NCBI GenBank assembly: GCA_017619835.1
Contig: JAFZRN010000032.1
Coordinates: forward strand, 62,001 to 126,000
DNA from: Eubacterium sp.
Lineage (GTDB): Bacteria; Bacillota; Clostridia; Lachnospirales; Lachnospiraceae
Length of the DNA stretch: 64,000 nt
Direction: 5' to 3'
Part shown: one piece after another, positions 42,066 to 56,314 of the stretch
Layout of the letters: each line of letters starts with the position of its first letter
Position numbering within the stretch: position 1 is the stretch's first letter
Made by a program: the position numbers and the translations under genes
Notes under the pieces: generated by a model
Told to the model about the DNA's origin: nothing
The model's database searches: none
Seen by the model: only the letters and a program-made list of their open reading frames with translations

Positions 42066-42098
42066 AAAAAGGAAGGCTTCCCGCCAGGAGAAGCCTTC
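42066..42098 (-). terminator. Terminator of the kinase/FHA/Ig-repeat operon
   Basis: GAAGGCTTC (42072-42080) pairs with GAAGCCTTC (42090-42098), followed on the minus strand by five T residues. It is 29 bases after the stop of the 1976-residue gene. Confidence 0.85.
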
Positions 42099-42126: not shown

Positions 42127-45100
42127 TTAACGTCTATTTCCACGTCTCTTACCGAGCAGGAGTAATAATCCGCCAAGGAGTACAAGTGCTGCGATACCAC
42201 CGATGATCAGCCATAAGAATCTGCGTCCATAACTGAACTTGATCGTAACTTCCGACTTATTGCCGGCTCCGTCACTTGCGGCAGCTACAAGAGTATATCT
42301 GCCACGCTTATCAATCTGAACCTCAGCCTGTCTGTCTGATACTACGAGTGATTCGCCATTGACTGTTACATAGTCAAGGTAATCTTCATCAAGCTCTACC
42401 GAAACATTTACCTTGGTTGCATCCTTAAGTACCGCTCCGTCCTCAGCACCTGTAATAATGATATTCGGTGCGATCGTATCAAGTACAAAGGTAAACTCTC
42501 TTACTGACTTATGTCCCATCTCGTCGGTTGCTTCGATTCTCAGAACATGTGTTCCGTCTGCAAGAGCAGTTCCTCCATCATAGAGAGCTCCGTCCATGTA
42601 AAGCTGAACCTCACAAACCGTAAGATCAGATACAAGATCCTCAAGGTTCTTATCAAGAGTAAACTCTTTAACCCTGGTTCCGTCATACTCCGGAAGATCA
42701 TCAATTACCGGAGGCTTAGTATCGATCGTGAAATGAATTGTCTGGGTGTCGGAATTTCCGGCCTTATCTGTCGAGGTAACCGTTATATCATAAATGCCGT
42801 CTTCCTTAAACATCTGTGTAAGAGTAGCAATCTTCGCACTGGCTGCAGGGAAGTCGTCAAACTTAAGATCGGTCTTATCTCCGGACATATCCGTTCTGGT
42901 TCCTTCGATCTTAACCTTATTGGTAAGGTAGAAGGTCTCATCAACCTGAATTCCGAGCTCAACCTGTTTATCGGTCTTGTCGTAATTCGAAACACCCGAA
43001 AGTGTGATCACCGGCTTGGATCCATCAAGGATGAAGGAGTACTTCTCACTTGCCTGGTTTCCTGCCTTATCAGTTGCACTGAATACGAATCTGTATTCGC
43101 CGTCCTGTGTAAATTTCTCGGTCTTGGTATCATTCGAGCTTCTTGGCATGAAGTTTATGGTTGAATCATGCTTCTCGTTTTCACCATCAACCTTCCTATA
43201 TACTTCAATTTTACTGCTTGAAACATCATTATAGAAGGTTTCCTTGATATTGAAGGATACGTCTACTTCAGTACTTGATGCACCGTTCTGGGCATTACTT
43301 GATATGCTGAGCTGAGGAGCAGTCTTATCTACTCTGAACTTAACAGATGCAGGTGCACTGCTGTTTCCGGCCTTATCAACTGCCGTGTACTGTACCTCAT
43401 AATCAGCTTCATTTGTAAAGCTCTGGGCACCCTCGGTTACCTTGGATGTTCCGCCGCCGCCACCGGTACTCTTTACAACTCTCGTTATATCGTTAGGATC
43501 CTTATTAGCATCGCTTACCGATACATTTACGGTACCCTGAGTATTGGTGGATATCATAGTACCCGAAGAATTCGAGCCATTAACTGTTGCTGTTACAACT
43601 GGCGCTGTCTTATCAATATAGAAATCAAGGATCTTCTTTCCGCCGCTGTATTCTACAACATTACCTGCCTTATCCTCGATTTCCATCGTGATAACATGAT
43701 GTCCTTCATCGGATATGGTAGCGGTACCCTTTCCGAGACCGTTCTTTTCGGTCCAGTCAGGGATGATCTCTTCATCACCATCAGATATCGTAATACTGTC
43801 AACGCTGTAATCGAAGTAGCTGAACTCGATCGTAACGCTCTTGTTGTAGTACTGACCGTAGGTGTAATTCTCCTGATCCTTATATGATTTGAACTTTCCT
43901 ACCTTATTAGTATATGTAGCATTAAATGCACTGAACTTAGGCGGCTTGTCAGACTTGATATACATGTTGCCGACAGGCTTGGTCCTATCGATATAGAGAC
44001 CTACCGTCTTTGTTCTCTCATTTCCTGCAAGATCCACAGCCTTATAAACTATGGTGTACTTGCCCTGCTTCTTTAATGTATAAGGTCCTTTGCCCTTGTA
44101 ATCATCAACTATCTGGTCACCTGTAAAGGTATCACAGGTAATAGTTGCGGTAACATCTGACTTATCCTCGTAATCATCCTTTACTATAACGCTTGTCTTA
44201 ACGTTGGAAGTGAAGTAATCATCCTTGGAATTGTAGTCCTTACCGTTAACCTTAGCTGTAAGCTTAGGCTTTGTTCTATCAATGACAAATGTCCTGGTAT
44301 CACTGGACTCATTTCCGGCCTGATCCTTAACTGCAACCTTTACAACATGCTTCTCTTCCGAAGAGGTTGTGTAGGTAGCTGTAAGCTTACCGTCTTTAGA
44401 AGTCCAGTTGACAGATACAACCTTATCATTATCAGTTACTGTAACATCCTTAGGAAGTACAGTTGAATCGCTTATCTCAAATGAAAGCTCAACTGATGCC
44501 TGGTTATAATAACCATCTCTCTTAAGAGCCTCTGTCACTATCCTGATCTTAGGAATCGGCTTTGACTTATCAACGGTTAAGCCGATAGTCTTTGTCGACT
44601 CATTTCCGGCCTTATCAACAACCTTGAAGGTGATCTCATACTTACCTTCATCATTGAGGCTGTGAGGACCTTTTCCGGTCTTAGTTTCTGTTACTGCATT
44701 TCCGTCAAACGGTGTACGCTTGATAGTTACTGTAACATCGTTATTATCAGGATTATCATCCTCAACCTGAACTGAAGCAGCAACTCCACTGCTGAAGAAG
44801 TCGTTGGACTTGTCATAAACCTTACCATCAACCATAGTTGTAAGATCCGGCTTTGTCTTATCAATAGTAAAGCTTGTGGACCATTTTCCTACGAGACCTG
44901 CATTATCAGTAGCAGTAACCTCAATCTTGTAATTACCTTCTGCACTGAAGGTTAATGATGTTGAGTAACCACCGGTTATATCGCTCCAGTCAGGACTGTA
45001 AACCTTACCACTTACAGTATCGGTAACCTTGATATTAGCCTTCTGCAGATTTGAATCCTTTGCGGTAAGATCAATCTTTACATCCTTATTATATACAGAG

Positions 45101-48057
45101 GAGTAATTAGACTTAACAGCTGTTGTGGTGATATTTCCGGTAACAACAGGCTTTGTATTATCTACTCTGAAGGTTGTAGTTAATACCGTAGCTTCTTTTC
45201 CGGCCTTATCCTTACCTGATAAAGTGATCTTATAATCCACAGTATCGCTGAGAGTATCATTTATGATCTCACTTAAAGTCTTTCCGGAATCTAAAGCATC
45301 TGTCTTTGTGATAGTTGTAGAACCATACTCTATCTTAAGAGTTAATCCATCTGTTGTTGCAAGACCACTTATGGAATCTGTTACTGAATACTCAATCTTA
45401 GGGTCAGAACTAAGAGTCTTACCATTTACTGCTGAAGAACTCTGTCCGCCTACTGTAAGTGATGCTACAGGAGCGGTGTCATCAACGTAGTAGGTCTTTT
45501 CATAATTTGGAGACGTACTGCTGTTACCTGCTTTATCAACTACGGTAAATGAAACTTTTGTTCCAATGCTGTCAGCAGATTCATTAACCTGTGCAGTGAA
45601 TTTTCCGTTTGTATCAAACGAAGTATACTCAGACTGTGATGTTCCGGATGCAGATACTTTTTTAACACCGGAGAGATTATCGCTGACCTTAACAATAAGG
45701 AAAAGCTTCTGATACCATGTACCGTCTCCTTCATCAATTGACTGAGCAGTATCTATCTCGACATTGTCCACAGCGGGATTTGTAAGATCTATACATACAA
45801 CTTTGGTTACTTCATCACTTGAACTTCCGTTATCATTTGTGGCAGTAAACTTTAATGTATAAGTTCCATCAGATACAGAACTGAAATCATACTTATATAC
45901 ATAGAGATTATTAGCAGCATCACTCTTCTCTGTATCAAGTGCGAGCTCTGTAGCAGAACCACCGTCAACGGTATATTCAGCTTTTGCAATAGGAACTTCG
46001 GAAGTAACTTTATAGTAAAGATATGCTTTCTTCTCGCCTTCTCCCCACTTAAAGAGATTAGCTCCATTATGCTCTATCACTTCAGGAGAGAATTCAGTAT
46101 CAATACTTATTTTTTCATTATAGTAGTTTATCGTAGCAGTATATGTTTCCTCATTTCCTGCCAAATCAGTAACTACTACTGTAACTGTATCTTGTCCACC
46201 GCTTTCCATTGATGCATTAGCGGGAAGTGAATAAGTAAATTCGGTATTTGTTGAATCAGTCGCGGTTCCTGCATTATTATTAAATGTAACACTCTTTACT
46301 CCGCTTATCGTATCATCAACCTTTACGGTAAGATCTACAGCCTGTTTTGCTGTAAACTTATCAGTAATCTCACAGCTAGTTGATTCTCCGAATTCTGCAC
46401 TTCCGCTATAACCAAGTGAAGACTGTTCAGCACTGATCTTTGTAGCTACCGGTTTAACGTTATCATAGCAGACTGTTATAATATCAGATACTGACGGTAT
46501 TCCATAATCGCTCTCAACTCTTAACTTATAATACTGGTTACCCGTTTCAGAAGGAGTAAAACCAAATGAAGCAGATCCTGAAGGACTATTATTACTCCTC
46601 AGGTCTTCCACTTTAAATGCTTTATCATCAGAAGCATCTGGGATGGCTCCGGTCGAATCGGTTTTAAATAATTGTATCTTATCTAACTTTGCTCCGGAAG
46701 CAGTATCAATTACTTCAGAACTGGCACCTATCGTTATGTCGGACTTTGTATAAATTGTTCCTCCGGAATAAGGGTTTCCATCTACACTTATACTGGAAAA
46801 CTTGGGCGAACCATCGCCATACTGAATGTTTATTGTTACAGAATCTTCAACATCTCCATCTTTTGCCGTGAAAGTATAATCTTTTTTCTTTCCATTATTA
46901 TCAAGACTTCCGGGTATAGTAAAAGTATTGCCTTCTTTTGTAACATTATCCTTATCACATGATACAGTGGCACTATCTTTATCGGTGTTAATGGTTATGA
47001 CAACCGGTTTCTTTGGATTGTGCACAGTACTGTCTAAGGTACTGTTATCTACCGTACTTCCATCTATAGAAGCAGTATAACCGCTAATAACAAAATAGTT
47101 TCTTTCAATAGTAGCTACATCTTCCTCATTATAAACAACTTCTACGTTATCTGATCCTTTAGGAATTGTAACCTTTTTAGAAATGGTATATGTTCCATCA
47201 CCTGCGGTTCCTGTTGTTTTATCCCCAATAATACCATTAATTGCAGATAAAGAATCAGCACTTACAGCTTCTCCACCTTTTTTAAGACTATATTCTATCG
47301 TACCATAATAACGGGTATCTCCAGAACCGCCACCAACCTTGCCTGAATCATTATCCGCAAATGCCAGGTTTTGAGCATCATTAGTTCCGCTTACACTCGG
47401 ATCAGAAGGCTTATATGACGAAATAGTAATCTGCGCTACCGCTTCAGACCCATTTGTTGAGAATCCATCCATAGGATTAGGATCTTCATTACCTTCGCTA
47501 TCAACCATATAATAATCTACATTTGTGTAAACCTGAATCTTAGCTACCTGATCGGATGCTGCAGAAACAATATAATTATCTTCTGTTTTATTCCCTGTCC
47601 AGGCTGCAGTTCTGACTGTTTTTTTCTTGGCCGGGTACATTATAGCATCATTATTAGCATCTACTTCTAATACATATCCGTCCAGATCATCATCAGCAAT
47701 TTTTTCCAAAGAATACTTATCCGGATTCTCGTTCTTAGTATATCTGTAAAATTTTACATCTTCTTTTTTGGATTCATCAAATATACTTGCATCAGGAAGT
47801 GCAAATTTTACTCCATTTGCAGGAACATTTACAGTAAATTTATTATCTTCAAGATTATTACTTTTACTTATTCCCAAACCATTAAGAAAATCTGTATCAG
47901 TCGCAGTGACACTCGGTGCGCCTTCATCAGCTACAACCCTGTCCTCTTTATGGTTTATATATATAACCGACAGCACCATAACCAAAGCCATAAGAACAGC
48001 GAATAGCTGCTTATATGGCAATCGTGCGGTTTTTGCCTTTCTAAAAATTTTTTTCAT
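42127..48057 (-). CDS. Giant Ig-repeat surface protein with C-terminal membrane anchor
   Basis: 1976 residues. A long N-terminal signal/anchor helix (about 17-36) is followed by about 600 residues of distinct beta-rich sequence. From about residue 640 there are roughly a dozen Ig-like repeats of about 90-110 residues, each with a DKAGNxS turn and a VDKTKPxxxxxVNG linker. A last membrane helix (about 1944-1966, WLIIGGIAALVLLGGLLLL) ends in GKRRGNRR, so the repeats are outside and the tail inside. It resembles adhesins built of bacterial Ig-like (Big_3-type) domains. No enzyme motif is seen. GGGAGGGAG precedes the ATG, 12 bases after the TxxL-tail gene; it is the last gene of the kinase/FHA operon. 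Confidence 0.85.
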   Translation of the reverse strand: MKKIFRKAKTARLPYKQLFAVLMALVMVLSVIYINHKEDRVVADEGAPSVTATDTDFLNGLGISKSNNLEDNKFTVNVPANGVKFALPDASIFDESKKEDVKFYRYTKNENPDKYSLEKIADDDLDGYVLEVDANNDAIMYPAKKKTVRTAAWTGNKTEDNYIVSAASDQVAKIQVYTNVDYYMVDSEGNEDPNPMDGFSTNGSEAVAQITISSYKPSDPSVSGTNDAQNLAFADNDSGKVGGGSGDTRYYGTIEYSLKKGGEAVSADSLSAINGIIGDKTTGTAGDGTYTISKKVTIPKGSDNVEVVYNEEDVATIERNYFVISGYTASIDGSTVDNSTLDSTVHNPKKPVVITINTDKDSATVSCDKDNVTKEGNTFTIPGSLDNNGKKKDYTFTAKDGDVEDSVTINIQYGDGSPKFSSISVDGNPYSGGTIYTKSDITIGASSEVIDTASGAKLDKIQLFKTDSTGAIPDASDDKAFKVEDLRSNNSPSGSASFGFTPSETGNQYYKLRVESDYGIPSVSDIITVCYDNVKPVATKISAEQSSLGYSGSAEFGESTSCEITDKFTAKQAVDLTVKVDDTISGVKSVTFNNNAGTATDSTNTEFTYSLPANASMESGGQDTVTVVVTDLAGNEETYTATINYYNEKISIDTEFSPEVIEHNGANLFKWGEGEKKAYLYYKVTSEVPIAKAEYTVDGGSATELALDTEKSDAANNLYVYKYDFSSVSDGTYTLKFTATNDNGSSSDEVTKVVCIDLTNPAVDNVEIDTAQSIDEGDGTWYQKLFLIVKVSDNLSGVKKVSASGTSQSEYTSFDTNGKFTAQVNESADSIGTKVSFTVVDKAGNSSTSPNYEKTYYVDDTAPVASLTVGGQSSSAVNGKTLSSDPKIEYSVTDSISGLATTDGLTLKIEYGSTTITKTDALDSGKTLSEIINDTLSDTVDYKITLSGKDKAGKEATVLTTTFRVDNTKPVVTGNITTTAVKSNYSSVYNKDVKIDLTAKDSNLQKANIKVTDTVSGKVYSPDWSDITGGYSTSLTFSAEGNYKIEVTATDNAGLVGKWSTSFTIDKTKPDLTTMVDGKVYDKSNDFFSSGVAASVQVEDDNPDNNDVTVTIKRTPFDGNAVTETKTGKGPHSLNDEGKYEITFKVVDKAGNESTKTIGLTVDKSKPIPKIRIVTEALKRDGYYNQASVELSFEISDSTVLPKDVTVTDNDKVVSVNWTSKDGKLTATYTTSSEEKHVVKVAVKDQAGNESSDTRTFVIDRTKPKLTAKVNGKDYNSKDDYFTSNVKTSVIVKDDYEDKSDVTATITCDTFTGDQIVDDYKGKGPYTLKKQGKYTIVYKAVDLAGNERTKTVGLYIDRTKPVGNMYIKSDKPPKFSAFNATYTNKVGKFKSYKDQENYTYGQYYNKSVTIEFSYFDYSVDSITISDGDEEIIPDWTEKNGLGKGTATISDEGHHVITMEIEDKAGNVVEYSGGKKILDFYIDKTAPVVTATVNGSNSSGTMISTNTQGTVNVSVSDANKDPNDITRVVKSTGGGGGTSKVTEGAQSFTNEADYEVQYTAVDKAGNSSAPASVKFRVDKTAPQLSISSNAQNGASSTEVDVSFNIKETFYNDVSSSKIEVYRKVDGENEKHDSTINFMPRSSNDTKTEKFTQDGEYRFVFSATDKAGNQASEKYSFILDGSKPVITLSGVSNYDKTDKQVELGIQVDETFYLTNKVKIEGTRTDMSGDKTDLKFDDFPAASAKIATLTQMFKEDGIYDITVTSTDKAGNSDTQTIHFTIDTKPPVIDDLPEYDGTRVKEFTLDKNLEDLVSDLTVCEVQLYMDGALYDGGTALADGTHVLRIEATDEMGHKSVREFTFVLDTIAPNIIITGAEDGAVLKDATKVNVSVELDEDYLDYVTVNGESLVVSDRQAEVQIDKRGRYTLVAAASDGAGNKSEVTIKFSYGRRFLWLIIGGIAALVLLGGLLLLLGKRRGNRR

Positions 48058-48069
48058 GTACTCCCTCCC

Positions 48070-48966
48070 TTACAGACTCTCATTGGTATGAACTATGGTC
48101 TCGCTGTAAAGTACTTTAATACCATCGAGATTGATATTTGATCTGTTGGCTCTAATGGAATCTTCTCCGGGTGCCATATCTGATCTAAGCACCGCGGTCA
48201 TCTCCGGATTGTAAACTCCGTATATCTCATTTTCAGAAAGTGTGCTGCCCATGTCAGAGGTAAGCACAGCTGTCTTGGATTCTTCCTCTTCAGAAGCTAT
48301 AATGTCAGCGGATACTGCCATGGTTCTCAGAACATCGGTAACATCCTCTTCCTCGTTATAGTCACTGTTCTTAGCTTTTTCAAGAACGTCTGTTGAGTCT
48401 TCGTCATCTTCTTCCTTTGACATTCTCTGTCCGACAGTCTTGATCTCTTCTGCTTCTTCTTCATCGGAAAGAACATCTGTAGGCTTTTCTTCTTCGAGAA
48501 CGTCAGTTGCTTCCTCACCGGTAGCATTTTTCTTTTTCTTCTTGGTCTCGCTGTATTTAAGAAGCTCTGTATCGTCTTCTTCTCTAGCCTTGGCAGCTTT
48601 TTCTTCAGCTTCCTTTGCCTGCTGCTGGGCCTTGTTCTTTGCATCCTCGATAGCCTTTTCGGCAAGCTTTTCAGATGCATCTGAACTTCTCTTATCCGTA
48701 CGGCTTCCTTTGAAGATGGAACCGGATCTGTCGAGGACCTTGCCTCCTACATCTCTTGCAAGGATTGCACTGCCCTTGGTTCTGCTTCTTCTTCCGGTAG
48801 GAATAACCGTTCCGGATTTGATCTCTTCTATTGCCTTCTTCTGAGTTTTGCCTGTTACAACTCCGAAAGCCTTAGGTATCTTCATTACGAAGAATATAAC
48901 TACTGTTGCTATAAGAAAGAGGATGAACAGGACGAGTCCTCCGTAAAACATTATGTTATACAACAT
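48070..48966 (-). CDS. Membrane protein with seven T-x-[VL]-L phosphothreonine-type motifs
   Basis: 298 residues, no known family. A membrane helix (about 7-29) is followed by KIPK, which places the rest in the cytosol. A basic part (40-110) and a Lys/Glu/Ala helix (100-130) lead to an acidic disordered tail. The tail carries TELL (133), TDVL (154, 163, 192, 210) and TAVL (232, 257). Thr with Leu at +3 is the preferred FHA-domain ligand once phosphorylated. TAVLRSDM (257-264) closely resembles the TSVFRADF site of mycobacterial GarA, a kinase substrate. The ATG lies 6 bases after the kinase stop, and its GGAAGGAG site is inside the kinase gene. Substrate and scaffold roles are inferred from motifs and position. 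Confidence 0.75.
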   Translation of the reverse strand: MLYNIMFYGGLVLFILFLIATVVIFFVMKIPKAFGVVTGKTQKKAIEEIKSGTVIPTGRRSRTKGSAILARDVGGKVLDRSGSIFKGSRTDKRSSDASEKLAEKAIEDAKNKAQQQAKEAEEKAAKAREEDDTELLKYSETKKKKKNATGEEATDVLEEEKPTDVLSDEEEAEEIKTVGQRMSKEEDDEDSTDVLEKAKNSDYNEEEDVTDVLRTMAVSADIIASEEEESKTAVLTSDMGSTLSENEIYGVYNPEMTAVLRSDMAPGEDSIRANRSNINLDGIKVLYSETIVHTNESL

Positions 48967-48972
48967 ATCTCA

Positions 48973-51036
48973 TCACTCTCCTTCCTTCAGGCTGCTCATT
49001 GTCGAGGAACGCTTGATCCAGTTAGGATTGCTGTCGATTCCGCTTACACCGTTACCAGCGTCGTAAACAGCGATTATTTCCTTCTTCTCGGCTGAGGACC
49101 ACTTTGTAGGATCCTGCTCGCTTTCCTCAAAGAGCGTATAGAGATAATTCAGATGCTCGGAATAAACCTTGATGGAATTCTCATTGGTCTCTCCAAGCTC
49201 TTTCTCTGCCTTCTTATAGGTTTCTACTGCCGAATCCTTATCGCCGAGCTTTCCGTAGATCTCAGCCATTCGGCACATCATGTTTACATAGCTCTGGATA
49301 TAACCCTTTGCCGTGTCATTTTCCGGAGCCTCACCAACCTTAACCATACCCTGGATCTGGTCGATCACTTCCTGGGAATATTTAAGCGCCAGCTTGTAAT
49401 CTGCTTCTTCACCGCTCTTCTCGGCAAGTGAGTAGTAGATTTCAGCCAGGTTATTACTAAACTTGTAATAGTATGCTGCCTGCTCTTCACCGCTGTAGCC
49501 CTCGAGATCCTTGATGGCCTGACTCATAACTGTCTCAGCCTGCTCGGGAACTCCTTCGGTTGAAAGATAAGTAACATATATCTTTCCGAGAGTTTCATAA
49601 TTCTCGAACTTCTGCTTGTTATCATTGGAAATGCTTTGCATGTTGTAGGATGCGAATCCGTTAACCTTGCCTACGAGATCTCCAACATTAACATTTGTAC
49701 TGGACATGATAAGTGCGATACTTCCATAGTAATCGGAGAGCTCACCATAGGTGTCGTCCTTCTCGTCTACCATACCGAAGTATTTGTTTGCTACTCCATA
49801 GTCACCAATCTCAGTGAAGTAGGTAAGTCCCATCTTGTAGAGAACTTCGTTGTTCTTATCAACGTCCGAATAACCGTTCTTGATACGGTTTGCGACTACG
49901 TTAAGACCGTCGCTTAGGTTAAGCTCTTCCTTGGATTCTGCATCCTTGGAAGCATCTATATAAAGGTCTATATACTTAACATATGCGTCTGCATCATCGC
50001 CCGAAAGTTCAAATGCGTTCCTGTATTCACGGGCTGCCTGTGTATATTTACCTTCAGCTTTGAAGTCATTTCCGGTCTCAATATAAGCTACATAGTTCTC
50101 GGCATTGGCCTTGTTCATTCCGGCTTTTCCGGCTATAGCAACAAGACCGAAGAAAAGGGTGAGTCCTGCACTGATTGCAAAGAGTCTGACCTTATTCTTG
50201 TTGGCCTGCTTGTAGCTCTCATCAAGCTCGGTATAATGTTCCAGAGCATAGATAAGCTCTGAACATGTCTGATATCTGTCCTCGGGATTGGGCTTCGTAC
50301 ACTTAAGGATGATCTCCTCAAGTCCTGTAGAAAGCATAGGGTTAACCTGTCTTATCGGAACCATCTCATAAGGAGGCTCCTGAGGGTTCTTACCTGTTAC
50401 CATGTGGTAAAGGGTAGCACCCAGGTTATATATATCTGTTCTGGCATCTGTCTTGTAGATACCACGTCCCTGAGCATCACCAAACTGCTCCGGTGCCGCA
50501 TATCCTCTGGTACCAAGAGCGGTAGTGTCCGCATTGTTCTCGATATCGTAGGTCTTGGCCGTACCGAAGTCGATAAGCTTAACGCCGCCATCCGGCTTAA
50601 GCATTACATTTGAAGGTTTCATATCACGATAAATGATAGGAGGATTCATGGAATGGAGATACTCGAGAGCCGAAGCCAGCTCGAGACCCCAGTCGATTAC
50701 CTCATCCTGAGAGAAGCTTCCAACTTCCTTAAGCTTATCTGCAAGGTTTTCTCCTTCTATGAAGTCCATAACAACGCAGATAGTGTCGTTATACTTAACG
50801 ATATCGATGATACGGGGAATAACGGGATGGTCCACATCCTTAAGGATGTTAGCCTCTCGTTCAAGACCCTTCAAAAGTATATCGGTGCTTTTGGATCCGT
50901 CATTTTTAATTTCCTTGACGGCAAGCTGCATGTTCATTCTGTTGTTACGAGCAAGATAAACGATGGACATTCCGCCCTCGCCGATCTGTTTCAGTATCTC
51001 GTATTTGTCGTCAATTACTGTGCCTTCTTTTAACAT
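48973..51036 (-). CDS. Hanks-type Ser/Thr protein kinase with TPR ectodomain
   Basis: 687 residues. The kinase domain (12-270) is complete: glycine loop IGEGGMSIVYLA, Lys41 (AVKEIK), Glu61, catalytic YRDMKPSN (Asp138, Asn143), DFG (156-158), activation loop TTALGTRGYAAPEQ with Thr171/172. A membrane helix (about 284-308) leads to an outside domain of TPR-like helices (about 315-670; KFEAEGKYTQAAREYRNAFE type). Firmicutes PrkC/PknB kinases usually carry PASTA repeats instead, so this is not the housekeeping wall-sensing kinase. The PP2C gene ends 21 bases upstream; the TxxL-tail gene starts 6 bases downstream. Expected role: phosphorylates threonines in operon partners in response to an outside cue. 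Confidence 0.92.
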   Translation of the reverse strand: MLKEGTVIDDKYEILKQIGEGGMSIVYLARNNRMNMQLAVKEIKNDGSKSTDILLKGLEREANILKDVDHPVIPRIIDIVKYNDTICVVMDFIEGENLADKLKEVGSFSQDEVIDWGLELASALEYLHSMNPPIIYRDMKPSNVMLKPDGGVKLIDFGTAKTYDIENNADTTALGTRGYAAPEQFGDAQGRGIYKTDARTDIYNLGATLYHMVTGKNPQEPPYEMVPIRQVNPMLSTGLEEIILKCTKPNPEDRYQTCSELIYALEHYTELDESYKQANKNKVRLFAISAGLTLFFGLVAIAGKAGMNKANAENYVAYIETGNDFKAEGKYTQAAREYRNAFELSGDDADAYVKYIDLYIDASKDAESKEELNLSDGLNVVANRIKNGYSDVDKNNEVLYKMGLTYFTEIGDYGVANKYFGMVDEKDDTYGELSDYYGSIALIMSSTNVNVGDLVGKVNGFASYNMQSISNDNKQKFENYETLGKIYVTYLSTEGVPEQAETVMSQAIKDLEGYSGEEQAAYYYKFSNNLAEIYYSLAEKSGEEADYKLALKYSQEVIDQIQGMVKVGEAPENDTAKGYIQSYVNMMCRMAEIYGKLGDKDSAVETYKKAEKELGETNENSIKVYSEHLNYLYTLFEESEQDPTKWSSAEKKEIIAVYDAGNGVSGIDSNPNWIKRSSTMSSLKEGE

Positions 51037-51057: not shown

Positions 51058-51828
51058 TTATTTAACAGATATTACTGCGATAGTTATATTGTCTGTTTCT
51101 TTACGGTTCTTGTCGAGCTCTGTGAGATAGACACAACCGTACTTAAGCTCATCCAGTGTTCTTCCTACTGTAGGACTGAGCTTTTCCATGATTTCTTCTT
51201 CGGATATCTGGTGTCTGAAACCATCAGAGCAGATCAGATATACACAGTTCTCCAGAACCTTTCCTTTAAGGAAGTCAGGCGTAACAGTAGCGGATGCGCC
51301 GACGCACTGAAGAAGAACGCTTCTTCTCGGATCGAGCTTTGCTTCTTCGGGAGTCATTCTTCCCGCAGCAACCTCTCTTGCTACAAATGTCTGATCCTTG
51401 GTAAGTATCCTTGCGGTATCCGTAAGCTCATAAACACGGCTGTCGCCTACATGAACTATATAGAACTCGCCCTTATACATAAGGATTGCGGAAACTGTTG
51501 TTCCGAGCATGATATTATTATCAGAACCGTATATTCCAAGAAGTCTGTTCTCTGTCTGGATTATGCTGTTCCAGTCATCCCTCAGTCTTGTTGCACTGAA
51601 GGAGCCTTCAACTACCTGACAGACAAACTCTTCATCAAACCATCTACAGAATGCAGATATAACTTCCTTGGATGCAAGCTCGCCCTTGGCGAGACCTCCC
51701 ATTCCATCACATACTATTGCAAAAGCAACCTGACCGTCGGGAGTATCTATGATTCTGAGTGCAAGGGAATCCTGATTTGTACTCTTGCGTATTCCTATGT
51801 CAGTATTATATGTCGCTTCAAACTCCAT
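51058..51828 (-). CDS. PP2C-family Ser/Thr protein phosphatase
   Basis: 256-residue metal-dependent phosphatase, soluble. N-terminal NQD (18-20), VCDGMGGLAKGELAS (39-53) with the metal Asp41, HVGDSRVYEL, LTKDQTFV, CSDGFRHQI and a C-terminal DNITI are the canonical PP2C blocks. It would reverse phosphorylation by the kinase encoded 21 bases downstream. The ATG is two bases after the FHA protein stop with AAGGATGATGAGG upstream, so the FHA, phosphatase and kinase genes form one translation-linked series. Confidence 0.94.
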   Translation of the reverse strand: MEFEATYNTDIGIRKSTNQDSLALRIIDTPDGQVAFAIVCDGMGGLAKGELASKEVISAFCRWFDEEFVCQVVEGSFSATRLRDDWNSIIQTENRLLGIYGSDNNIMLGTTVSAILMYKGEFYIVHVGDSRVYELTDTARILTKDQTFVAREVAAGRMTPEEAKLDPRRSVLLQCVGASATVTPDFLKGKVLENCVYLICSDGFRHQISEEEIMEKLSPTVGRTLDELKYGCVYLTELDKNRKETDNITIAVISVK

Positions 51829-51830
51829 CT

Positions 51831-53678
51831 TTATACCTCATCATCCTTCAAACGATACATAAAGCCTTCATCACCGAGTATTATATGAGTGTTGGCCTTG
51901 AGAAGCATTTCTCTTCCCGGCTCAAGTCTCGTGCCATTTACAAATGTTCCGTTTGTAGAATTGTTGTCTTCCACATAGCAAACTCCGTTTCTGCGGATGA
52001 TAACTATATGGACTCTGCTTATAGCACCATTATTTTCTATCGGATAATCGGCATGAACCTTTGACTTGCCGATCTTAAATTCGTCTTTTGTTATATAGAT
52101 CTTCTCGCCGGTCTTCTCTCTTACGAGATGAGGACGAGGTTCAAAGTTATCAAATGCATCCAGACTCAGCTCTTCAACAGGTGCTGCGGGTGCCGCAGGT
52201 GCCTCGGGCTTCTTGTTGGTTTCAATGATGTTACCGATTGCCTCAGGTGTAAGCGGCTCAGTCATTCCTGTCTTAGGTATGTAATCCAGATCAAGTGGAA
52301 GATTCGGATCAATCTGAGGAGCCTGTGGTGCCTGTGGCTTCAGCGGCTCGGGGATTGATGCTGTCATAAATGACTCAGGCATCTGGGCGGGCTGCTGAGG
52401 ATGTGCCGGCTGCATCGGTCCCGGTTCCGGTATCGGCTGTGGCTGAGGAGCAGGCTGTGGAATAGTCTGCTGCATCGGCTGCTGTACAGGCTGCGGTATC
52501 GGCTGCGGTATCGACTGCTGCATTGGCTGTGGTACCGGCTGCGGTATCGGCTGTGGTATTGTCTGCTGCACTGGCTGTGGTACCGGCTGCGGTATCGGCT
52601 GTGGTATTGTCTGCTGCACTGGCTGTGGTACCGGCTGCGGTATCGGCTGCGGTGTTGTCTGCTGTACCGGCTGCGGTATCGGCTGCTGTACAGGCTGCGG
52701 TATCGGCTGTGGTGCCGGTGCAGGCTGTGGTATCGGAGCAGGCTGCGGTATCGGCTGTGGTGCCGGTGCAGGCTGCGGTATCGGAGCAGGCTGCGGTATC
52801 GGCTGTGGTGCCGGTGCAGGCTGCGGTATTGGATCGGGTATTGTATCGGCCGCGGGGTCGAGAATCGAATCGAGTGTAGCCTCATCTACGGGAGCAAGTG
52901 CAGGTTCTTCTGCAGGTGCTGCCTTCTCTTCAGCGGGAGCTGCCTCCTCTGCGGGTGCTTCTTCTGCTACCGGAGCTTCTGGTGCAGGCTCTTCTGCGGG
53001 CTCCTCTTCTGCAGGTGTCTCTTCTGCTGCAGGTGCTTCCTCTGCGGGTGCCTCTTCTGCTGCGGGCTCCTCTGCAGGTGCCTCTTCTGCTGCGGGCTCC
53101 TCTGCAGGTGCTTCTTCTGCTGCAGGCTCCTCTGTTGCGGGCTCTTCTGCAGGTGCCTCTTCTGCTGCAGGTGCTTCCTCTGCGGGTGCCTCTTCTGCTG
53201 CGGGCTCCTCTGCAGATGCTGCTTCTTCAGCAGGTGCTTCCTCTGCAGGTGCCTCTTCTGCTGCGGGCTCCTCTGTTGCGGGCTCTTCTGCTGCAGGTGC
53301 TTCCTCTGCAGGTGCCTCTTCTGTTGCGGGCTCTTCTGCAGGTGCTGCTTCTGCTGCAGGTGCTTCCTCTGCGGGTGCCTCTTCCTCTGCTACCGGCTCC
53401 TCTGCGGGTGCTTCAGGGGTAGGTGTTGCCTCTGCTTCAGGTGCGGGCTCTTCTGCAGGTGCAGGCTGCGGTATCGGCTGCGGTGCCGGCTGTGGCGCTG
53501 CCTTTGGAGCATTAGCTGCGGGCTTAAGAGTGATAACTGTTCCGGGGAACAGTCTGTCATTCAGATCCCTTACAAGAGCTATCGCATCGTTTCGCGACAA
53601 CGTATTGATCAGATAATCCGGGAGAGAAACTCCCTCGGGAATGTTCAGTGTCCATTGATTGTTAGGTGTGTTCTGCAT
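51831..53678 (-). CDS. FHA-domain protein with long Ala/Glu/Pro and Pro/Gln repeats
   Basis: 615 residues, cytosolic. A short N-terminal unit (about 1-52, ending GTVITLK) is followed by a Glu/Ala/Pro repeat tract (about 60-270, units such as [10 protein letters not shown]) and a Pro/Gln/Ile tract (about 285-430, [13 protein letters not shown]). A C-terminal FHA domain (about 518-610) has [11 protein letters not shown], the phosphothreonine-binding SRVH, and [10 protein letters not shown]. All key FHA residues are present. It should bind phosphothreonine peptides made by the operon kinase. The repeats are also tandem at DNA level, so length may vary. GGGGAGGT precedes the ATG. The 133-base gap upstream holds a 7-bp hairpin (53784-53802) and a TACAAT string but no convincing promoter. 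Confidence 0.88.
52430..53500 (-). repeat. Tandem coding repeats in the second FHA gene
   Basis: Two tracts: 52430-52840 (near-repeats of a CGGTATCGGCTG motif, coding Pro/Gln/Ile) and 52880-53500 (near-repeats of GCTTCTTCTGC/GGCTCCTCTGC, coding Ala/Glu/Pro). Units are multiples of three, so gains or losses keep the frame and change spacer length between the N-terminal unit and the FHA domain. Confidence 0.85.
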
Positions 53679-53811
53679 TTTGTTACCTCCCCATTGTAAC
53701 CCTCAAATTCCCCAAAATAAGGGTAGTTCTAATAAACACGGAAAGTTCAGAGCAGTTTTTTACCCTGAACCGGTTCCGGACGCACCGCAAGTTTGTTGCG
53801 GTACAGATATA

Positions 53812-55221
53812 TTAACTAATCTTGAATGTGAAGTCCTCGTCACCAAGTGTAATGGTGCAATTGTTCTTTAACTGAACTTCTTCCTCACCTTCTACCATCT
53901 TATGATCAACATAGGTATGGTTGGTTGACTTGTTATCCTTGATATAATAGTTCTCACCCTTATGAAGGATGATAGCGTGCTGACGGCTGATCGCACCGTT
54001 TCCGCTTATATGGAAATCAACACCACGGCTTGCCTTTCCGATCTTGAATACAGGCTTGTTGATCATGATCTTTTCATCTGTATTTATACGGATCAGATAA
54101 GGATTAATCTTAATTGCTCCTGTTCTGCCGAGGATAGTGTTATCAACAACTTCTGTCTTGCCCTTCTTTCCGGCATCCTTCTTATCCTCGTCCTTAGCGT
54201 CGTCCTTATCCTCTTCCTTCTTTTCGGCTTCTTCAGCTGCCTTCTTTTCTTCTTCGGCTGCTGCTTCCTCGGCCGCTTTCTTGTCTTCCTCTTCAAGTTC
54301 CTTAGCTGCAGCCTTGAGCATTTCTGCTCTGCTTACTCTTACAGACTTCGGAGCCTCATTTTCGGAAAGTGCTGCTTTTTCTTCCTTAGCAGTTTCTTCC
54401 TTAGGCATGCTGCCTGCAAGATTAGCTGCTGCTTCTTCGATACGAGCCTTGATATCTTCAACAGATTCTGCGACAGGCGGTTCGGGAACCTCCTCCTCGT
54501 CATCATCACCAATCTCCGGAAGCTTCTCATCTGCAGATCCGAGATCATTCATGAAGTCCATAGCGCTCTTCTCTTCCTGAACCTCTTCAAGAGGAGCATC
54601 GCTTACAACCTCTGTTCCGTCATCCGTGGATATTCCTTCCTCGGCCTCATATCCGATTCCGGCATCCTGCATCAGGGCTTCGCAAAGTCCGATGAGACCT
54701 CTCAGATTGAAGTTATTGCCGTTAATGTATGTAAGGAGCTGTCCTACATAAGTAAGATTCTCATCTACGTTATAGATAAATCCGGCTACGAGCTGTCTTA
54801 CAAAGCTCTTGAATTCCGAAGAAAGTGCCGAATCTCCCTCAACGGGAAGATATAAGAACTTAATGCTTAAAGTATCGGGGTCGATATACATAAATTCTTT
54901 ATTGAGAATGATATATGAAAGCGGAATGGCATGCTCGTTGATGCTTATCATGCCAAGAGCAATATTTCTAAGAAGCTTAAGTACCTTCTCTCTGTTCATA
55001 GTGCCCTGTGAGTAACCATCTACTGTCATCTTGCCTGTTACATCATAAGTAAGATAATCAAAGTCATCATCCTCTTCATAGATGATGCCGACTATCTCAG
55101 GCAGTTCATTTTCCTCACAGTAATCCAGGACATCTTCGTCAACTTCCATTCCTTCTCCCATAACATATGTGAGATAACGTTCCTGTCCCAAATTCTTAGC
55201 TGTAAATCTAAAATATCTCAT
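53812..55221 (-). CDS. FHA-domain protein with DUF6382-like N-terminus
   Basis: 469 residues from the ATG at 55221, which has GGAGGAG about 10 bases upstream; a longer reading from 55314 overlaps mltG and is rejected. The N-terminus (about 1-190) fits the DUF6382 pattern of Lachnospiraceae FHA proteins (YLTYVMGEG...VTGKMTVDGYSQ...FMYIDPDTLSIKFLYLPVEG). A highly charged Lys/Glu/Ala region (about 200-370) follows, then the FHA domain (about 385-465) with GKASRGVDFHI, SRQH and NKSTNHTYV. The Gly of the usual NGT motif is His. It should read phosphothreonine marks; DUF6382 itself has no known activity. mltG ends 34 bases upstream. The family name is from memory. Confidence 0.88.
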   Translation of the reverse strand: MRYFRFTAKNLGQERYLTYVMGEGMEVDEDVLDYCEENELPEIVGIIYEEDDDFDYLTYDVTGKMTVDGYSQGTMNREKVLKLLRNIALGMISINEHAIPLSYIILNKEFMYIDPDTLSIKFLYLPVEGDSALSSEFKSFVRQLVAGFIYNVDENLTYVGQLLTYINGNNFNLRGLIGLCEALMQDAGIGYEAEEGISTDDGTEVVSDAPLEEVQEEKSAMDFMNDLGSADEKLPEIGDDDEEEVPEPPVAESVEDIKARIEEAAANLAGSMPKEETAKEEKAALSENEAPKSVRVSRAEMLKAAAKELEEEDKKAAEEAAAEEEKKAAEEAEKKEEDKDDAKDEDKKDAGKKGKTEVVDNTILGRTGAIKINPYLIRINTDEKIMINKPVFKIGKASRGVDFHISGNGAISRQHAIILHKGENYYIKDNKSTNHTYVDHKMVEGEEEVQLKNNCTITLGDEDFTFKIS

Positions 55222-55255
55222 GTTGACTCTTGCTCCTCCTATATCTTCTCTCTCT

Positions 55256-56314
55256 TTAATCTTCAGACTGAGTAGCTTCGTGCTCTTCATAAGTTTCCGT
55301 GAATATGTGTTCACCTTTTTCTTCGTCGATTATATGGTAGTACATATAATTCGTATCGGCGGGTTCAAGCGCCGCTTTAATACAGGCAAGGCCCGGGTTG
55401 CATATAGGCCCTACCGGAAGACCGCTTGATACATATGTATTATAAGGCGAACTGTATGTCAGATCGTCTGATGACAGCGCCGGCATGTCATACATACCTT
55501 CGGTCAACGGATAAAGAATTGTTGAATCTATCTGAAGCTGAGTATTTGCATCAAGTCTGTTATAGATTACGGATGCGATCTTCGGACGTTCTTCGTCGAT
55601 CTTCGCTTCTCTTTCTATCATTGATGCTACATTCAGAACTTCAAATGACGTCATTCCTCTTTCCAATGCAACCGACTTAAGCTCATCTGTGTAATAGAGC
55701 TGGAAAGCATTTAACATCATATTTACAAGATCTATAGCCTTGGTGTTCTTGGTGATGTCATAGGTTGCAGGGAAGAGATATCCCTCAAGCTTATATCTTA
55801 CATTTGCACCGGACGGCACATCTTCCAGATATTCAAAATCACTGGAAGTAATTGACTTGACTGCATTTATAAAATCACTTCTTGAACAGATGCCTTCTTC
55901 CTGACACTTTGCAGCAATCATGTCCACCGTAAAGCCTTCGGGGATGACCAGCTGTTTTATGACCTTGGAGCCTTCATCCTCTTTGGCCATCACTTCCATC
56001 ATTTCGAGTGTGTTCATTCCCTTGTAGAGTGTGAAGGTTCCGGCCTGGAGCTTTCCCTTAAAATCGGAATCCTGAAGTCTCTTTACAAAGGCTCTCTCAA
56101 ATCTGATTAGTCCTTTCTTGTGAAGTATCTTCGCTATATCCTTTACCGACGATTCTGTCGGTATCACAACCTCTACCGCTTCGGTGGGATTGGAATATGT
56201 ACTTGTTAATTCATCTTCGTATGCATTTTTATAGTCTCTGATGTAGTCAGAAACAATAAAGAACAGCATAAGAGCGGCCACGAGGCCGATCATAAACTTT
56301 ACTGCTTTAACCAT
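55256..56314 (-). CDS. mltG: Endolytic murein transglycosylase MltG
   Basis: 352 residues, YceG/MltG family: a membrane helix (about 5-24), a LysM-like unit (about 45-120), and the catalytic domain with LVIPEGFTVDMIAAKCQEEG, ASMIEREAKIDEERPKIASV (catalytic Glu in IERE) and YNRLDANTQLQIDSTILYPL. The enzyme cuts nascent glycan strands outside the membrane and sets their length. AAGGAAG precedes the ATG. It is 34 bases upstream of the DUF6382-FHA gene, so the phospho-signalling series may be expressed with a wall enzyme. Confidence 0.93.
   Translation of the reverse strand: MVKAVKFMIGLVAALMLFFIVSDYIRDYKNAYEDELTSTYSNPTEAVEVVIPTESSVKDIAKILHKKGLIRFERAFVKRLQDSDFKGKLQAGTFTLYKGMNTLEMMEVMAKEDEGSKVIKQLVIPEGFTVDMIAAKCQEEGICSRSDFINAVKSITSSDFEYLEDVPSGANVRYKLEGYLFPATYDITKNTKAIDLVNMMLNAFQLYYTDELKSVALERGMTSFEVLNVASMIEREAKIDEERPKIASVIYNRLDANTQLQIDSTILYPLTEGMYDMPALSSDDLTYSSPYNTYVSSGLPVGPICNPGLACIKAALEPADTNYMYYHIIDEEKGEHIFTETYEEHEATQSED

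Follow-up and report, generated by a model that had tools for sequence, protein, structure and literature searches.

What is a row of seven short threonine motifs for, when it fills the tail of a small membrane protein whose gene lies immediately behind a protein kinase gene and in one unit with two FHA genes? We address this question for a locus within a 64,000-nucleotide stretch of a Eubacterium sp. contig (the window). A reading made from the sequence alone had taken the motifs for a docking array for FHA domains.

The array protein and its operon

The protein, which we call the array protein (TMP), is encoded at 48070..48966 on the minus strand, as are all features of the window given below unless called antisense. 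Its 298 residues comprise an N-terminal TM helix, a short conserved juxtamembrane region, an acidic, disordered tail and a conserved C-terminus. The TM helix is predicted at residues 2-27 (48886..48963), where AlphaFold2 models a helix (block pLDDT 85-97), and pLDDT falls below 50 at residues 146-233 and 235-241. The confident N-terminal helix and these low-pLDDT stretches support the earlier description of a membrane protein with a disordered tail. A second long helix is modelled at residues 95-134, with T133 at its end, and T257 falls in low-confidence sequence (block mean 53). The tail is presumably cytosolic, judging by the positive charges that follow the TM helix. The array protein matched no Pfam family, and neither the window copy nor six relatives tried matched an NCBIfam family; on these searches, membership of a named family is rejected.

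Re-translation of seven DNA stretches returned T-x-[VL]-L motifs exactly where they had been reported, at residues 133, 154, 163, 192, 210, 232 and 257. Motif 1 is TELL (residues 133-136, 48559..48570), its T kept in 52 of 55 aligned genus relatives. Motifs 2 to 5 are all TDVL, at residues 154-157 (48496..48507; T in 43 of the 44 genus relatives ungapped there), 163-166 (48469..48480; T 54/54 and L 54/54), 192-195 (48382..48393; T in 52/54) and 210-213 (48328..48339; T in 49/51). Motif 6, TAVL followed by TSDM (residues 232-235, 48262..48273), keeps its T in 46 of 50 genus relatives. Motif 7, TAVL followed by RSDM (residues 257-260, 48187..48198), is among the best-kept sites (T 53/54, L 54/54) and has an [RK][SA] extension in most genus relatives. 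The protein ends in a conserved element, IKVLYSETIVHTNESL (I.V.Y.ET.VHT.ES.L; residues 283-298, 48073..48120), in which I283, T290 and E296 are invariant in alignment A1. Its H-T pair occurred 87 times against 22.7 expected in a residue-pair scan, and many relatives from beyond the genus share its HT.E part.

By Pfam, the transcription order of the locus is MltG-like, DUF6382 plus FHA, low-complexity plus FHA, PP2C, kinase plus TPR, the array ORF, a 1976-aa Ig-like protein and an NlpC/P60 protein. The MltG-like (YceG) gene (55256..56314, PF02618) belongs to the conserved neighbourhood, the order being alike in many genus loci. Both FHA genes lie upstream of the array gene on the same strand, in agreement with their earlier assignment to its unit. 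fhaB (53812..55314) combines DUF6382 (PF19909) with an FHA domain (PF00498), and its true start probably lies inside the listed ORF, which overlaps mltG. fhaA (51831..53678) is a Pro/Ala/Glu-rich low-complexity protein with a C-terminal FHA domain (PF00498 at residues 535-602); in the modelled FHA region (51834..52166) the phosphopeptide residues are largely kept (GK, SRxH, STNGT). Long (P)AEE and QPIPQP repeats run through fhaA, and an antisense 432-aa ORF at 52401-53699 is probably a by-product.

The presumed eraser is a PP2C-type phosphatase (51058..51828, PF13672), which is Stp1-like but below the NCBIfam cut-off. The presumed writer is a PknB-like Hanks-type Ser/Thr kinase with a C-terminal TPR region (48973..51036; PF00069, 164 bits), separated from the array ORF by the 6 bases that the sequence-only reading had counted. 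Its activation loop, DTTALGTRGYAAPE, is present in 53 of 55 orthologue ORFs, the other two being without a pattern match. Pfam gave TPR matches and no PASTA match for the window kinase, and NF033483, with a cut-off of 450, scored 201.5 bits. A PASTA-type kinase (PknB/PrkC) is ruled out, extracellular PASTA repeats being absent from the Pfam matches. Downstream, the gene for the Ig-like surface protein (42127..48057; PF19077 and others; hydrophobic C-terminal segment) begins 12 bases past the array gene. It is followed by a terminator-like hairpin (42072..42098; 11 pairs, 6 GC), which is weak evidence, as terminator-like sites overall number 14 against 11.2 expected.

Enrichment, conservation and spread of the motif

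In the window tail (shuffled from residue 61 onward), the seven T-x-[VIL]-L motifs compare with a shuffle mean of 0.18 and a maximum of 3, and none of 20,000 shuffles reached 7. Five are T-[DE]-[VIL]-L, against 0.04 in shuffles. For comparison within the same genome we used 282 longest-ORF proteins (128,708 aa, array protein included) drawn from the window and 17 other stretches, about 0.4 of the 2.75 Mb genome. Every other protein in this sample had at most two T-[DEASTN]-[VIL]-L motifs within 130 residues; with any residue allowed at +1, one 900-aa protein had four T-x-[VIL]-L over its whole length.

Array-protein matches were found in 57 of 61 genomes of the genus, the window's own counted. 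The genus set comprised 56 sequences (the window and 55 others), a few of them cut at one end; one further sequence, 66 residues at a contig end (L046), was dropped. T-x-[VIL]-L occurred 373 times in this set against 12.5 expected from composition-matched shuffles, and S-x-[VIL]-L was near chance (20 against 12.5). With an acidic residue at +1 the numbers were 268 against 3.1 for Thr and 2 against 2.9 for Ser. Other acceptors in that setting were Ala 0, Asn 0 and acidic residues 9 (8.2 expected), so that Thr is seldom replaced by Ser, Ala, Asn or an acidic residue. At +3, Val, Ile, Met, Phe, Asp and Glu were not enriched in the 56 sequences. The expectation of Leu, Ile or Asp at this position therefore stands for Leu, fails for Ile and Asp, and is too broad for the array, as only Leu is enriched there. 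Lys or Arg follows at +4 in 108 of the 373 motifs.

Site number was 5-9 in 55 of the 56 genus sequences and 2 in the remaining one. The mean frequency of the top residue was 0.89 in motif columns and 0.40 in 166 other tail columns, although the motif itself may bias the alignment. It had been suggested that homologues be aligned to see whether T-x-x-L is kept while its flanks drift, and these frequencies strongly bear that pattern out. Within residues 72-282 of alignment A1 (28 sequences), nine columns were invariant or nearly so, and eight of these belong to motifs. When residue pairs at gaps 1-7 were scanned without presupposing a motif, T..L at gap 3 ranked first (z 50). The Thr codons of the motifs are mixed (ACA 199, ACC 65, ACG 64, ACT 45), as are the Leu codons.

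To look beyond the genus, 397 genomes of the family were searched with a profile; 51 had a match to the array family, two of these genomes belonging to the window's genus. Among 48 of the 49 other relatives (G186 was left out), T-x-[VIL]-L occurred 129 times against 6.0 expected and S-x-[VIL]-L 3 times against 5.3, with 60 T-[DE] forms and no S-[DE] form. At least one site was present in 39 of these relatives, at least two in 28, at least four in 13 and none in nine; two of the sequences (L248 and L252) are near-alike and not independent in these counts. A kinase gene lay on the same strand in 46 of the 48 in the retrieved DNA. In wider samples, matches were found in 23 of 295 genomes at the level of the order, 12 of 391 for the class and 5 of 398 for the phylum. 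Most were from the window's family; motif-bearing relatives also came from other families and orders, two of them from outside the class. Among weak matches, one (G740) had no motif and another (G1090) had one. The array is thus real, conserved and spread across genera, families and classes.

The set of FHA, PP2C, kinase, array and Ig-like proteins is often repeated at related loci. We labelled genes by similarity in 35 wide non-genus stretches and counted the 34 loci with an array gene, excluding L316, a flank without the gene. Kinase was found in 34, PP2C in 31, Ig-like protein in 27 and FHA in 25, and all five components in 19. The array protein itself was labelled in 32 of the 34 and in the other two was seen beneath overlapping ORFs.

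FHA domains and the reading of the motif

Most FHA domains largely keep the sequence of the phosphothreonine pocket. Among full FHA domains, 78 of 79 from the genus and 27 of 29 from elsewhere retain SRxH and [STA]xNx[TS], leaving a damaged pocket in 3 of 108. The GK, S, R, T and N of the window FHA domain align to R61, S75, R76, T96 and N97 of DgcB, four being identical and the canonical FHA Arg being Lys in the window. The modelled fold is closest to DgcB, tied with EmbR (VIA-align). Pocket state and site number were compared at single loci for signs of joint loss, and the cases point both ways. L054, with the lowest genus array (2 sites), has a broken fhaA pocket and an intact fhaB, and L226 has lost STNxT and has 0 sites. 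Conversely, SRxH is changed to GRVH in L305, yet it has 8 sites, and L050 has no fhaA in its locus, yet has 7 sites and FHA matches elsewhere in its genome. ATNGT is present in the FHA domains of L219 and L312.

The motif also recurs within FHA proteins. Outside the genus, 26 loci have a full FHA domain, and in 20 of them T-x-V-L immediately precedes it; in the window, neither fhaA nor fhaB has a T-x-[VIL]-L at this place. The motif was not enriched in the fhaA linker across the genus (3 against 3.1 expected); in the fhaB linker the Thr version was enriched (13 against 1.7), and so was the Ser version (7 against 1.9). FHA matches were found in 34 of 35 searched genomes with an array-protein relative, some of these relatives being motif-free. 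The other genome, G1413, is 98% complete and fragmented and gave no FHA match; its relative, beside a kinase gene, has three motifs (L306). Of 200 family genomes, 172 had FHA matches. Where the array gene was present, 33 of 33 had at least one and 32 of 33 at least two, against 139 and 56 of the 167 without an array match, a class defined by the lack of a match to profile A1; this profile misses some relatives, among them G200, which profile A4 picked up. The excess of genomes with at least two FHA matches is partly trivial because of the shared operon.

Several explanations of the motifs compete. That the T-x-V-L repeats are an artefact of low complexity or repeated DNA deserves almost no credence, even though an acidic tail and, in some relatives such as L115, tandem-like repeats speak for it. 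Shuffles of the same composition fell far below the genus count, the motif columns are kept while their flanks drift, and no other sampled protein of the genome approaches seven motifs in so short a stretch. The mixed Thr codons indicate that the array is not copied DNA, and shuffles and codons together rule out chance in low-complexity sequence. The repeats could also be a short linear motif that works without phosphorylation and serves another partner, such as DUF6382, a coiled coil or the kinase lobe. The V-L pair, being hydrophobic, could dock alone; the near absence of Ser, Ala, Asn and acidic residues in place of Thr makes this quite improbable, an acceptor Thr near a kinase and a phosphatase being the simplest cause of such constancy.

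The main rival is that the array serves the kinase next to it as a multisite substrate, acting as a charge switch, a phosphate buffer or a kinase docking site, and that the FHA proteins are not its readers. It keeps this place because PknA-dependent phosphosites of M. tuberculosis have similar flanks: as described in the accessible text of PMC7164672, they have acidic residues before Thr, Leu or Val at +3 and Lys or Arg at +4. Such a preference is much like the array motif, including its basic residues at +4, and could alone explain the acidic-T-x-x-L-basic pattern. The kinase is moreover the most constant neighbour, both on the same strand and in the wide loci (34/34 against 25/34 for FHA), and the motifs of G1413 occur in a genome that gave no FHA match. 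Weighing against this account, the use of Thr and not Ser with Leu alone at +3 looks stricter than the kinase logo in the account given there (PMC7164672), and the motif recurs beside FHA domains. Nearly all searched genomes with an array relative have FHA matches, though most family genomes do anyway. On balance we consider a kinase-only array unlikely.

We favour a multisite phosphothreonine strip that the kinase writes, FHA proteins read and PP2C erases, with a probability of roughly two in three. Gene context gives good support to a candidate phospho-Thr array beside its own kinase, phosphatase and FHA genes, and this array likely docks FHA domains. Conservation, Thr specificity and gene context partly support the proposed FHA docking array; that FHA domains, rather than the kinase alone, select the motif is the part that we infer. 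The array ORF would encode a scaffold that crosses the membrane once and in whose disordered tail, on the cytosolic side, lie phospho-acceptor Thr in (acidic)-T-[DEAS]-[VIL]-L, and the adjacent membrane kinase would phosphorylate these threonines. The FHA domains of fhaA, fhaB and, where present, an FHA-bearing EssC would then bind phosphothreonine, their specificity pocket taking up Leu +3. With several sites on each tail, FHA proteins, themselves with long flexible parts, may gather into a membrane-attached cluster that PP2C would reverse. Such phosphorylation, FHA binding and clustering would probably control an envelope machine or a surface protein.

Secretion loci and known FHA systems

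Some relatives of the array gene lie near genes of envelope machines, a relation absent from the sequence-only reading. A24, TadE or DUF5702 genes, the only matches by which Tad was judged, occur in 9 of the 34 wide loci and are similar to Pfam-identified genes of L226 and L231. A 'tadC' label in the wide loci was discarded; by Pfam it matches a WG-repeat protein. EssC was the best label of an ORF in four loci (L215, L305, L311 and L313), and only best-label loci were counted, since the EssC2 query contains an FHA domain and also matches FHA proteins. A fifth EssC gene, named by NCBIfam, directly follows the array gene in L294. The order in L311 is EssC-like, small ORFs, FHA, PP2C, kinase, array protein, a protein with several TM segments and Ig-like protein. 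By eye, L214, L216, L308, L311 and L312 have a multi-TM-like frame of about 150-185 aa between the array and Ig-like genes. One genome (G213; L230 and L294) has two array loci, one near LXG/Tox-GHH and the other directly before EssC and a WXG100-like gene. In another genome of the window's genus (G006), L288-L289 hold an FHA-bearing EssC and, farther along, two genes each of the PP2C-like, FHA and kinase-like kinds, with no array protein labelled there.

The window itself has a kinase, a PPM phosphatase, a DUF6382-FHA protein and an Ig-like, TseI-type protein, by domain content only. Pfam identified no EssC-type ATPase, WXG100 or YukD-like protein among the eight window genes scanned. The window genome (assembly 93.4% complete) gave no YukD match, and its WXG100 match was below the cut-off. 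No EssC was identified in it either: of four FtsK-family matches, only the 1528-aa one was examined and is VirB4-like, and the other three lie in frames of 604-964 aa. The window locus is ruled out as a complete T7SS, the core genes not having been found. The VirB4-like conjugation ATPase (L290, C24 of the same genome) lies among same-strand ORFs, which suggests an integrative element.

In a wider and more tentative proposal, kinase, phosphatase, FHA proteins and T-x-V-L scaffold might form a portable cassette that applies the MDC1 principle in bacteria and is conserved in Lachnospiraceae and in scattered relatives across the phylum. Phosphorylation could control the assembly of FHA clusters at the membrane, and the cassette would be coupled in some loci to type VII secretion, in others to Tad pili or to an Ig-like surface protein on its own; the number of sites (0 to 10) could set the strength or threshold of recruitment. 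FHA gating by Thr phosphorylation is known for the T6SS and has been suggested for newer T7SS subtypes (PMC11217815), with no ligand named in the accessible text of that account. The conserved, countable motif offers a direct candidate ligand for DUF6382-FHA proteins and FHA-bearing EssC ATPases. One signalling cassette would thereby link Tad-pilus, T7SS and surface-protein loci, and the range of 0 to 10 sites would provide a natural series for multivalent phospho-docking in bacteria. We found no description of a T-x-V-L array in the accessible text of the papers searched.

Among known systems, T7SSe and T7SSj, as described in the available part of PMC11217815, have like parts: TseD (kinase), TseF (PPM phosphatase), TseJ (DUF6382 plus FHA), TseH/TseK (single-TM proteins) and TseI (Ig-like). 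The T7SSe Ig-like protein is large, with a signal peptide and a C-terminal TM segment, and resembles that of the window set. TseH and TseK of T7SSe have one TM segment each and a cytosolic part that is short and unstructured (PMC11217815); we liken them to the array protein on topology and on position in L311, both of which agree. Besides L311, loci L294, L305 and L313 pair the array protein with an EssC or EssC-like gene. The accessible T7SSe account makes no mention of a repeated Thr motif (PMC11217815).

In GarA, OdhI and DgcB, a phospho-Thr self-ligand lies N-terminal to the FHA domain (PMC6733907, as available), the same place as T-x-V-L before the FHA domain in those 20 non-genus loci. 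The window differs in having its array in a separate, seven-site membrane protein; this has no FHA match by Pfam and is not a single protein of the GarA/OdhI type. The sequence-only reading had likened the TAVL sites to that of GarA. GarA has TTSVFR (PMC4322841, accessible text), and the array family has TTVL and TSVL motifs, with TSVLRADM in the genus relatives L078 and L079.

Three further systems resemble the array locus in function. In the T6SS PpkA-PppA-Fha pathway, including A. tumefaciens TssL-Fha (PMC3953482) and A. citrulli TssW-PpkA-Fha (PMC12607579), a membrane kinase, a phosphatase and an FHA protein govern an envelope machine; Fha binds a phosphothreonine of a membrane protein, and PpkA condensates are reported (PMC3953482, PMC12607579; available text of each). 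Unlike there, Pfam identified no T6SS gene among the window locus genes scanned, and the accessible part of PMC12607579 describes no multisite array. In mycobacterial Rv1747-PknF-PstP, the kinase promotes and the phosphatase reverses condensation of a membrane protein's FHA domains and disordered linker, which, unlike in the array system, lie within one transporter (PMC9312465, as available). The TQXF repeats of MDC1 are phosphorylated by ATM and bound by the FHA domains of RNF8 and Pellino, with the +3 residue in a pocket (PMC11884936, accessible text), and MDC1 is like the array in having several T-x-x-hydrophobic sites in one adaptor. The array family likewise has conserved T-x-x-hydrophobic repeats in a disordered region, with Thr and not Ser as acceptor. 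MDC1 is not known to be homologous to the array protein and is likened to the array by function only, being a eukaryotic DNA-damage adaptor with Phe at +3 and Gln at +1 (PMC11884936). By analogy, the simplest account of the array is a mechanism comparable to MDC1, PpkA-Fha and the PknF-driven clustering of Rv1747.
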